From a virus: DNA of 20,072 bases. Position numbers and translations under genes: made by a program. The notes under the pieces are model-generated. The model saw nothing but the letters and a program-made list of their open reading frames with translations, was not told the origin of the DNA and searched no databases. The stretch lies in IMG/VR virus record IMGVR_UViG_3300025889_001235, positions 1 to 20,072 of that record; one strand, given 5' to 3'. Positions 3,144-8,652 of this stretch are shown here, piece by piece (the first letter of the stretch is position 1; every line of letters begins with the position of its first letter).

Positions 3144-3491
3144 TTACATCCATTTCCAACATCGTCCATTTTTCAACCATCGACGGCAGATCGGTTCAGG
3201 CGTAGGATCTGGGGGTGGTGGCGCGGGAGCCAGCCATGACACTTCACTCGCTGGGAGACTTTCCCCATACGCATTGAACGCCGTCACCGTGAAGTAATGC
3301 AGAAGCCCATCATCCTGAATCCCTAATTCTGTACAGGTCGTTTGTGTCGAGAGTCCTAACTGCAACGACCAGGCTCCGTAGAGTTCCCCATCAACCCGAT
3401 GATACACACGATACCCCAACAGATCCGTTTCCGAATTCGCATTCCAGGTCAATGTACACAAGGCCATCGTAAGGATGACCCGTGCGGTCAT
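3144..3491 (-). CDS. Fibronectin type III domain protein, 115 aa
   Basis: One FN3 domain fills residues about 10-90: the first strand LTWNANSETDLLGYRVY and the last YFTVTAFNAYGESLPASEVSW are near-consensus. A proline-rich linker (PAPPPPDPTPEP) and a basic-aromatic tail with Cys and Trp follow. The first ten residues (MTARVILTMA) are hydrophobic, but the FN3 strand begins straight after them, so a cleavable signal is doubtful. The start overlaps the stop of the beta-helix gene by ATGA. FN3 domains in phages usually decorate fibres or tails and bind carbohydrate weakly, so I read this as an accessory to the fibre proteins upstream. Confidence 0.75.
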   Translation of the reverse strand: MTARVILTMALCTLTWNANSETDLLGYRVYHRVDGELYGAWSLQLGLSTQTTCTELGIQDDGLLHYFTVTAFNAYGESLPASEVSWLAPAPPPPDPTPEPICRRWLKNGRCWKWM

Positions 3492-6412: not shown

Positions 6413-8652
6413 TAGTCACTCAATGAAGAGGTGCTATATTCCATCTTCACTCCCAAGAAATGTAACGTCGCAGCCGCCGTCGTCGGATTATCGGTGGCAT
6501 CAATATCGAGGTACCAATACAATAAATCCCCTGCCGCACAGGTCCCATTTGGCGTCACGGCAGAACTGGTCGTGGTATCGACGGCACTATTCCCTGTCAC
6601 CGCTGCATCGTCCACATCCACTTCCGTCCCATACGTACCATTGACGGTTTCGCCAGTTCCTCGACAGGCTGCGGCTATTTCAAGCGCAACAGACCCATTA
6701 TCCGCCGCTGTTTGGACATACGAGACTTCAAACGTGACGGTCCCCCCATCCCAACTATCAGGCATCACCGCCATCCCGTGCATCCGTGAACTATCGTTTT
6801 CGGTACAGATGATCGTGTATTGTTTGGGACCGGAATTGATCGTCACTTCCGCAGGATCGGCACAGTTCGTCCCGTCGCTGGACATGGCTCCCGCCGACCA
6901 GTAGATGGATTTTAAGGGACGATAGCCTGAGCCGAATTGGTACATGGCATTCACACTGGCAGCATCAGGGTCAATAGTGAGCATATTCGCATCACCCTCG
7001 ACATCGTAGATGCTATGGGTTTGATTCGTCAGGACTCGTGTGGCCGTATTCCCTGCTACGCAGGGTTCGATCACAGGACCCGATGTAGCATCATCGTAGG
7101 CACACAACCGATCTACACTATTTGTCCCGCCAAACTGAAATGCCGTGCCCGCGCTTACGGCTCCACTGATCGTATCTCCACGACCAAACACCGTATTAAG
7201 GGTATCCGCTTCCGCACTCAACGGAGCCACCCACGTATCGGTCGCTTCGCAGTAATAGAACCGCACGCCACTGGTCGCATCACTGTCAATGTAGACTTCA
7301 CCCGTCGCACAGGTGGCTGGCAGCGTGGCACTGTTGGGAATTTCCAAGGAGGTCTTGCCACCCAGGTTAATCGTGGCGGGAAGGCTTAGGGTAATCGAAC
7401 CTGTCGTCGCAGAGGCCGTGACTTCATTGGCCGTACTATTGATGTCAGTGGGTAACGCGGTACACGACTCAACGGCTCCAGCGGTATCGACGCCTAACGG
7501 GAACTGCCCAGCCGAACAGTTCGCGCCATTGGCTGACAACGCGGCGGCTGCGGTGGCGGTGATCGTGCCACTGCCTGATGTGGTCAGTGAAGCTCCCGTG
7601 CCCACCACCATTGCTGCCGTGGTATTGGTGCCATTGGTAATCGCACTAAACGCCGCACTGGACGCGGCACCAATGCAATCCACCGTCGAGCCACCTTCTT
7701 GACAACGGAACTTCGCGGTGCCGGTGTCATACCACATATCCCCGTTGGAAGGCGTCACCGGATCTCCGGCCAAAGATCCGATATTGAGTCCTGCATTGGT
7801 GGCATTAGGATTAAATGTTTGCCGGACCCCATCACCCCAGGAATTCGACACTGACGGGCTGGCATAATCAGTACCCGCTGTCGCAGAGGTGAGGACCCCT
7901 TGTGAGGACGCTTTTAGAATGCCGCTGGAAGCGGTGCCCGTCCACACCGTCGTATCCACGAATGCGCTTGTGATGGTATTACAGGTCGCCCCTCCAGAGG
8001 CATTCAAAACGCGAATCACCTGATTCGTACATGACGCTCCCGCATAAATCGACGGGGTGCCTGCCGTATTGATGACCATGCCCGTTCCTAGTGCCCCTAA
8101 ATTATGCTCGGCACTCAACGTCGCATCATCCGCTCCCGTCCAGTATTCGGCACTCGTCGGTGCGCCCGTACCGGCACCGGGACAGGCCCCGGATGACCAC
8201 GTCCCCGAAGAGGTGAGGAGACAGTCGCCTTCACTGCCCACAGCAGGCAAATCGCTGCCTCCTCCTCGCCCTGCTAACGTCAATAACCCTGTCACGGTTA
8301 CCGTCCCTGCCCCCAATGACGATACCCGCATCCGCACTTGCGAAAATCCAGCTACGGTACATTGATAGAGTCCTGATGCCGTTGCGGTCGTAGATCGCGC
8401 ACTCGTCGTCGTGAGCGTGCATCCGATGGACACCCAATTACTATCATCCGTCGTGGCTTCAAACGTGACGGTTGCCGTATCCGTAATAATGACCTGCACG
8501 CCGATCGTGCTCCATCCCTTAATCCCCATCGGCGTACCATCACCAGTTGCGGCTGCGGCATTTTGGAAGGTATGCGTTTTTGCACTCTGCGCAAAGGCAG
8601 GGAGCGCAGTCAATACGAGGAACGCTATGGCTAGCATCAATCGTGTCATCAT
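6412..8652 (-). CDS. Exported, cysteine-paired tail-fibre-like protein, about 746 aa
   Basis: I chose the ATG pair at 8652/8649 over the upstream in-frame start because an AAGGGGG ribosome site lies just before it, overlapping the stop of the previous gene. This also gives a clean Sec signal, MMTRLMLAIAFLVLTALPAFA|Q. The mature N-terminus is a beta-sandwich common in phage fibres (GWSTIGVQVI, TVTFEATTDDSNWVSI, GLYQCTVAGFSQVRMRV). The long middle has fibre-type repeats, including NGDMWYDTGTAKFRC and GEVYIDSDATSGVRFYYC, and the C-terminal 150 residues are a jelly-roll-like receptor-binding candidate. Eighteen cysteines occur as nine close pairs 9-27 residues apart, strange for a protein folded in the cytoplasm. 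It is the first of three signal-bearing genes. Fibre assignment is by architecture. Confidence 0.75.
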   Translation of the reverse strand: MMTRLMLAIAFLVLTALPAFAQSAKTHTFQNAAAATGDGTPMGIKGWSTIGVQVIITDTATVTFEATTDDSNWVSIGCTLTTTSARSTTATASGLYQCTVAGFSQVRMRVSSLGAGTVTVTGLLTLAGRGGGSDLPAVGSEGDCLLTSSGTWSSGACPGAGTGAPTSAEYWTGADDATLSAEHNLGALGTGMVINTAGTPSIYAGASCTNQVIRVLNASGGATCNTITSAFVDTTVWTGTASSGILKASSQGVLTSATAGTDYASPSVSNSWGDGVRQTFNPNATNAGLNIGSLAGDPVTPSNGDMWYDTGTAKFRCQEGGSTVDCIGAASSAAFSAITNGTNTTAAMVVGTGASLTTSGSGTITATAAAALSANGANCSAGQFPLGVDTAGAVESCTALPTDINSTANEVTASATTGSITLSLPATINLGGKTSLEIPNSATLPATCATGEVYIDSDATSGVRFYYCEATDTWVAPLSAEADTLNTVFGRGDTISGAVSAGTAFQFGGTNSVDRLCAYDDATSGPVIEPCVAGNTATRVLTNQTHSIYDVEGDANMLTIDPDAASVNAMYQFGSGYRPLKSIYWSAGAMSSDGTNCADPAEVTINSGPKQYTIICTENDSSRMHGMAVMPDSWDGGTVTFEVSYVQTAADNGSVALEIAAACRGTGETVNGTYGTEVDVDDAAVTGNSAVDTTTSSAVTPNGTCAAGDLLYWYLDIDATDNPTTAAATLHFLGVKMEYSTSSLSD

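Follow-up and report, generated by a model that had tools for sequence, protein, structure and literature searches.

Putative Sec-exported, disulfide-bonded fibre and adhesin-like proteins encoded among the virion genes of an uncultivated phage and its relatives

Results

Gene organization of the window

The window analysed here (20,072 bases) is the record of an uncultivated virus, and its minus strand carries, in order, the head genes, a coiled-coil gene, a fibre gene, a sandwich gene, a helix gene, an FN3-like gene and a lysis-like region. The head module (9962-16940) consists of small-terminase-like, TerL, portal, scaffold-like, major head protein and decoration-like genes. The portal was named from a Pfam search (PF12236, 7.9e-97), the major head protein and TerL were named from a PHROG search (phrog_3437, 1.5e-48, and phrog_2, 5.8e-6, respectively), and the other names were assigned from position and comparison. 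The coiled-coil protein upstream of the cassette (8866-9552) gave weak coiled-coil-type matches, no signal was found in it, and its gene is kept in L010, a phage relative of the window. The lysis-like region that follows the cassette (1573-3137) encodes an M15-like peptidase, a TM protein and two more genes, one of them with a lipobox (Pfam matches HH_signal, 2.5e-5, and Peptidase_M15_3, 0.023). An ORF at 857-1351 has a LAGLIDADG-like start (LAGLLEGEG), and we take it to be possibly a homing endonuclease.

The cassette itself consists of a predicted exported fibre of 746 aa with 18 cysteines (6412-8652), a predicted exported beta-sandwich-like protein of 250 aa with 6 cysteines (5660-6412), a predicted exported beta-helix-like protein of 722 aa with 16 cysteines (3488-5656), and a single-domain FN3-like protein of 115 aa with a signal-like start (3144-3491), all on the minus strand. 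The genes and cysteine counts of the first three agree with those given in a preliminary description of the locus. The starts were set at the hydrophobic segments, where each start has either a ribosome-binding site ahead of it or an overlap with the stop of the gene before: the fibre ATG at 8652 is preceded by AAAGGGGGACGT, the sandwich ATG overlaps the fibre stop (TAATG), the helix ATG at 5656 is preceded by GGGAG, and the FN3-like start overlaps the helix stop (ATGA).

Predicted export signals of the cassette proteins

Signals were scored with a simple, home-made scorer, for which 66 E. coli K-12 proteins served as the calibration set. The 11 proteins labelled as exported, which include the Tat substrate napA, scored 4.5-7.1, while 3 of the 45 labelled as non-exported scored above 4; the highest of these, mqo (5.6), has an N-terminus that is itself signal-looking. 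Compared with the exported E. coli range, the fibre (6.7; residues 1-21, 8590-8652, with predicted cleavage after residue 21 between AFA and QS) and the helix (6.0; residues 1-20, 5597-5656) lie within, the FN3-like protein (4.9) lies at the lower end, and the sandwich (4.3; residues 1-19, 6356-6412) lies just below. By the same scorer, TerL reached 2.3 and the portal, scaffold, capsid and decoration proteins had no signal. An N-terminal n-h-c signal with an AxA-type site is therefore, by this scorer, present in the window proteins, with the sandwich as a borderline case.

The n-regions of the fibre and the FN3-like protein are basic, while the sandwich and helix signals lack Lys or Arg before the hydrophobic core, which is a weakness. 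This feature lends weight to the reading that none of these proteins is exported, with hydrophobic starts that are buried or anchor the protein in the virion and cysteines that are reduced or metal-binding; we consider that reading improbable and disfavour it in view of the family comparison given below. The start of the FN3-like protein was rejected as a clean signal peptide, as its hydrophobic part overlaps an FN3 beta-strand in the window (the phrog_31 match begins at residue 12). In the L010 counterpart the N-terminus is longer, and a hydrophobic, signal-like stretch that ends in AEA lies ahead of the FN3 strand; this protein scores only 2.0 from the annotated start and 4.8 from an internal start. 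The locus had been described as three consecutive signal-bearing genes; all three do begin in a signal-peptide-like manner, but there are four such genes, the FN3-like gene being the fourth.

Cysteine content and pairing

The head genes encode few cysteines (portal 1, capsid 1, decoration 2, scaffold 0), as the preliminary description had stated for the capsid, portal and decoration proteins. In the fibre, all nine consecutive cysteine pairs have an inner gap smaller than the outer gap (P = 1.5e-5 under random placement), which bears out the nine close pairs that had been claimed, and the summed inner gaps gave P = 0.012. The summed inner gaps were not significant for the sandwich (P = 0.52) and the helix (P = 0.11), and close pairing beyond chance is confined to the fibre among the window proteins. 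The three even counts alone correspond to P = 1/8, and the FN3-like protein has 3 mature cysteines, an odd number. In the structure model of the sandwich, Cys27 and Cys40 are located on adjacent predicted strands (22-31 and 35-41).

Similarity searches and structure models

No above-cut-off match was obtained for the fibre, sandwich or helix in PHROGs and NCBIfam, the fibre had no PHROG or Pfam match, and tblastn with the fibre N-terminus found no match in named phages. Direct homologue searches of viral contigs returned nothing for the sandwich or the helix and one weak match for the fibre. The fibre also gave no match in the records of five relatives, a negative that carries no weight. For the sandwich and the helix, iterated profile searches retained few sequences, and pairwise BLAST was used in their place. 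By pairwise BLAST, fibre residues 28-122 are 40% identical to the exported fibre L083 (E 2e-8). A fibre repeat is common to a hypothetical protein of RcDormio (E 8e-3). The window fibre shares only its N-terminal module with the exported-fibre family described below, and it lacks the FPDNEPF motif and C-terminal domain of that family.

The sandwich model is all-beta (pLDDT 73, pTM 0.76). Among the 50 structural matches listed, all had TM below 0.35 and none had E < 0.001, and the protein is therefore given no fold name. The helix matches Pfam Chondroitinas_B at residues 65-106 only (1.9e-5; 24.3 bits against a cut-off of 24), its PDB matches were 0.011 or worse, and it is 24% identical to an exported protein of L021 over 479 aa (E 5e-10); its structure model (pLDDT 40) was too poor for use. 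The FN3-like protein matches PHROG 31 (tail fibre J, 9e-4).

Relatives found through head genes

Because direct homologues of the cassette were missing from viral contigs but for the one weak fibre match, the head genes were used as the search entry. The capsid search gave five loci at 85-87% identity. In one of these, L010 (capsid 87%), a comparable set of four proteins with signal-like starts is located at the place of the cassette, with the coiled-coil gene on one side and tail-tube-like genes on the other: a fibre of 665 aa with 12 mature cysteines, a 291-aa protein, a sandwich protein and an FN3 protein (L010:12629-13033). The L010 and window sandwich proteins are weakly similar in a two-sequence comparison (27% over 227 columns, E 0.14). 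Tail-tube-like genes such as those after the L010 cassette were not seen in the window ORF list and may lie beyond the fragment.

The capsid relatives L011 and L014 have no cassette genes at that place, where they carry a gene that we take to be methyltransferase-like. In the portal relatives L002 and L005 (59-60% identity), the proteins at the place of the cassette have no signals, and one of those in L005 is lectin-like (PF13385, 6.4e-10). As judged from these sequences, the place is one that can hold either putatively exported or non-exported proteins. The record of L014 contains an ordinary fibre-like gene without a signal (L132:3961-5955), and that of L027 likewise contains a fibre-like gene without a signal (L135:15059-16612). 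The absence of the cassette from L011 and L014, together with conventional non-exported fibres in two records, suggests that the cassette is accessory. For the same reasons, the exported proteins need not be receptor-binding fibres.

These observations also favour the possibility that the genes form an exported moron cassette, the products of which would be Sec-exported and oxidised and would have their effect on the host surface or in its surroundings, never on the virion. The roles proposed are superinfection exclusion, receptor masking, adhesion and cleavage of polysaccharide by the helix, and the weak similarity of the helix to a polysaccharide lyase fits the last of these. This alternative deserves serious attention, although we hold it to be rather less than probable.

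A family of fibres with and without predicted export

The L010 fibre is a full member of an exported-fibre family. With this fibre as the query, 44 viral loci and three phage records were found, and with an alignment of family members as the query, 57 viral and 8 MAG loci were found. The MAG loci are assigned to Acidobacteria/Terriglobia, Alphaproteobacteria, Myxococcaceae, Dehalococcoidales and Streptosporangiaceae, with binning errors possible. A total of 110 loci were examined; L061 and L124 had no match, and the 108 with a matching frame formed 65 clusters at 90% identity. By signal, 44 clusters were classed as exported and 18 as non-exported, while the 3 that are cut at the 5′ end (L040, L056, L070) were left out. 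The 44/18 classes were set by eye from hydrophobicity with the cysteine columns in view and are therefore non-blind. An automatic rule that is blind to cysteines gave 38 exported and 24 non-exported clusters; it places the cysteine-rich L026, L043, L049, L050, L066 and L068 among the non-exported because of their long n-regions or internal segments. The L042 contig carries both a non-exported family fibre and, next to it, an exported set of fibre, sandwich and helix (L042:9306-13500); the fibre counted was the non-exported one, and the adjoining set was left uncounted.

At least 4 cysteines were present in 39 of 44 exported clusters versus 0 of 18 non-exported clusters (Fisher 1.8e-11), and the median cysteine density was 1.3 versus 0.15 per 100 (p = 9e-8). 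The number was even in 39 of the 41 full-length exported clusters with cysteines (7.8e-10), a count that leaves out L025 and L064 (cut at the 3′ end) and L052 (no cysteine), while control ORFs without signals at the same loci were 68 even and 79 odd (68/147 even). With the cysteine-blind rule, the association remained (Fisher 1.4e-6) and 33 of 35 exported clusters were even (3.7e-8). Evenness was 94% after single-link grouping at 60% identity; grouping at 50% left almost all members in one group and gave 79% for about 5 members per draw. Other signal-bearing ORFs at the same loci were also mostly even (37 even, 16 odd, p = 0.005). Consecutive cysteines were paired more closely than the random median in 33 of 39 members (1.4e-5), and the motif V-N-C-x-x-G-C had 14 double and 2 single matches in exported fibres and 0/103 in non-exported ones, the two single-Cys matches sitting elsewhere than the motif. 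The exported exceptions are L028 and L069, with 1 cysteine each, and L052, with 0. L028 and L052 have a G+C of 0.41, perhaps pointing to hosts with little disulfide formation.

In two alignments of an exported with a non-exported fibre, cysteines are replaced together. The L010 fibre (L018) is 56% identical to L020 over 179 aa, and its four cysteines there are G, V, L and I in L020; L030 shares 66% identity with L046 across 153 aa, and both L030 cysteines are V and A in L046. In the window fibre, the repeat at 288-328 has C...C where RcDormio has A...V. The module at residues 28-122 is common to the exported L083 and, more weakly, to the non-exported L041; neither of them has C78 and C98 of this module, and the pair that L083 carries is at another place within it.

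This linkage of signal, cysteine number and parity across the family, the AxA-like ends of the hydrophobic starts and the paired loss of cysteines where the signal is absent all speak against the reading without export.

Genes for putatively exported proteins among virion genes

The claim that the cassette belongs to a virion operon held up in the relatives, where exported genes lie among portal, scaffold-like, capsid and tail genes. In L075, the row is portal (phrog_156, 8e-132), exported fibre, exported sandwich, scaffold-like ORF, major head protein (phrog_283, 6e-66), and exported sandwich and helix, which repeats the window order of fibre, sandwich and helix. ctLwi270 is the complete record of an uncultivated podovirus; in it, an exported fibre overlaps the portal gene and is accompanied by an exported lectin, a signal-bearing Tail Collar protein (PF07484, 1.7e-23) and a polygalacturonase-like protein that has a signal only from an upstream start. 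PF07484 was not found in eight viral records, a negative that shows little for fragments. Other same-strand ORFs of at least 150 aa had signals in 70 of 299 cases at exported loci versus 4 of 147 at non-exported loci (Fisher 1.6e-9).

Discussion

Sec signals direct proteins to the periplasm, where disulfides form, and assembly of tailed virions takes place in the cytoplasm. The even-cysteine bias of exported bacterial proteins has been read as a mark of intramolecular disulfides. PMC7678975, with a citation of Dutton 2008, gives that reading, and the same statistical mark is seen here in phage fibres, whereas the proteins there are those of the host. From the family test, this knowledge of Sec and the periplasm and the published bias, we conclude that Sec export with oxidation is well supported by the sequence comparisons, as the preliminary description had proposed from the locus alone. 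It is very probable from the sequences and their relatives that the cassette proteins carry signals and are exported, and the parity and paired replacement make disulfides in them just as probable.

We propose that the fibre, sandwich, helix and probably the FN3-like protein would be accessory adhesin-like proteins that are produced late, together with the virion genes, pass through Sec, lose their signals to signal peptidase and acquire disulfides in the oxidising periplasm. The exported proteins would then most likely wait in the periplasm, meet the virions at lysis and decorate them from outside. A function related to the virion is somewhat favoured by the operon position and by the non-exported homologues, as the only ways out of the cell for the latter would be on virions or through lysis. 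Attachment at lysis or later may well occur but falls a little short of probable. The operon position, the non-exported homologues at the same place and the signal-bearing Tail Collar protein count for such late joining. The fibre-like genes without signal in the L014 and L027 records and the absence of the cassette from near relatives count against it. The borderline sandwich signal, the odd FN3 cysteine number, the exceptions L028, L069 and L052, and the single module by which the window fibre joins the family weigh against the proposal as a whole.

The N-terminal module of at least 4 of the 18 non-exported fibres was found in no exported one, which likewise counts against late joining; the mode of attachment, if any, would differ. 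This absence also suits an exported moron cassette, as does the link to the outer membrane that the authors draw for signal-peptide proteins of Porphyromonas phages in the available text (PMC10367356). An exported cassette with no part on the virion is harder to reconcile with exported genes that are interleaved with portal, scaffold-like and capsid genes, with homologous non-exported fibres that adjoin tail genes (L020), and with the signal on the ctLwi270 Tail Collar protein; moreover, no surface-anchoring signal was noticed in the proteins.

An in-frame N-terminal domain (about 120-370 aa) precedes the hydrophobic segment and the cysteine-rich fibre in several family members, with a similar-looking stretch in L066, L068, L071, L075 and L026 and a coiled-coil-like stretch in L059 and L088. 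In part of the group, the segment might be a signal anchor: the fibre would stay in the inner membrane, and its N-terminal domain, on the cytoplasmic side, could hold virions or assembly intermediates until lysis. We think this unlikely, as the window proteins begin directly with the signal, internal starts lie just ahead of the segment in L059, L071, L075 and L088, and L068 has a start within the segment.

Returning to exported fibres that would join the virion late, coat proteins of filamentous phages are virion proteins with Sec signals that are assembled across the envelope; these phages are extruded through the membrane, in contrast to tailed virions. Signal-peptide and SAR endolysins (fOg44 Lys44, P1 Lyz) are likewise Sec-exported phage proteins, and activation of the P1 lysozyme uses disulfides according to the available part of PMC6116005, but they are lysis enzymes and not fibres. 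Seven named-phage fibre homologues (RcDormio, Microcystis Mwe-JY08, S-SRP01, Octadecabacter DB virus 2 gp15, OscarSo gp10, ctMEh928 and ct7ZZ929) are non-exported; RcDormio shares repeats with the window fibre and the others share repeats or modules with the exported family, yet unlike the exported fibres they have no signal and 0 or 1 cysteine each.

Within the open-access literature searched, the closest described case appears to be the Porphyromonas gingivalis phages (proposed family Nixviridae), tailed phages with five genes of unknown function that encode general-secretion signal peptides (PMC10367356, available text). Fibres, cysteines and a virion-operon position are unmentioned in that text, whereas here a fibre, a sandwich and a helix lie among virion genes with linked cysteines. 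No description of exported tailed-phage fibres was found in the open-access collection searched, which takes in few subscription papers or preprints. Fibres, signals and disulfides are known singly; their combination and its regularity appear to be undescribed. The preliminary remark that such logic is seldom described stands for the literature searched; the pattern itself, however, is not peculiar to the window phage but common among uncultivated viral contigs.

The recurrence in uncultivated phages of adhesin or fibre genes with a signal and paired cysteines suggests folding and disulfide formation outside the cytoplasm. We tentatively propose a widespread class of tailed phages in which Sec-exported fibres or adhesins, locked by disulfides in the periplasm, attach at lysis to virions built in the cytoplasm. 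If true, this would be an assembly route missing from the usual picture of tailed phages, in which virion or virion-derived adhesins fold outside the cytoplasm with disulfides. It would also explain cysteine-rich fibre genes in metagenomic phages, make a signal with an even cysteine number a sequence mark for finding such fibres, and suggest a dependence of these phages on the host Sec and disulfide machinery. If the proteins instead stay at the surface, a large set of phage genes at present taken for tail fibres would be modifiers of the host envelope.

Two minor features were also observed. The C-termini of the sandwich proteins are alike in L010, L021, L057 and L067 (VPVRMLMGVGL-like) and in the window (5660-5720, APMLLGE), which is perhaps a sorting or attachment motif. 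Gln is located at the predicted +1 position in 24 of the 44 exported fibres, in agreement with the rule cited for the P. gingivalis phages in the available text of PMC10367356.
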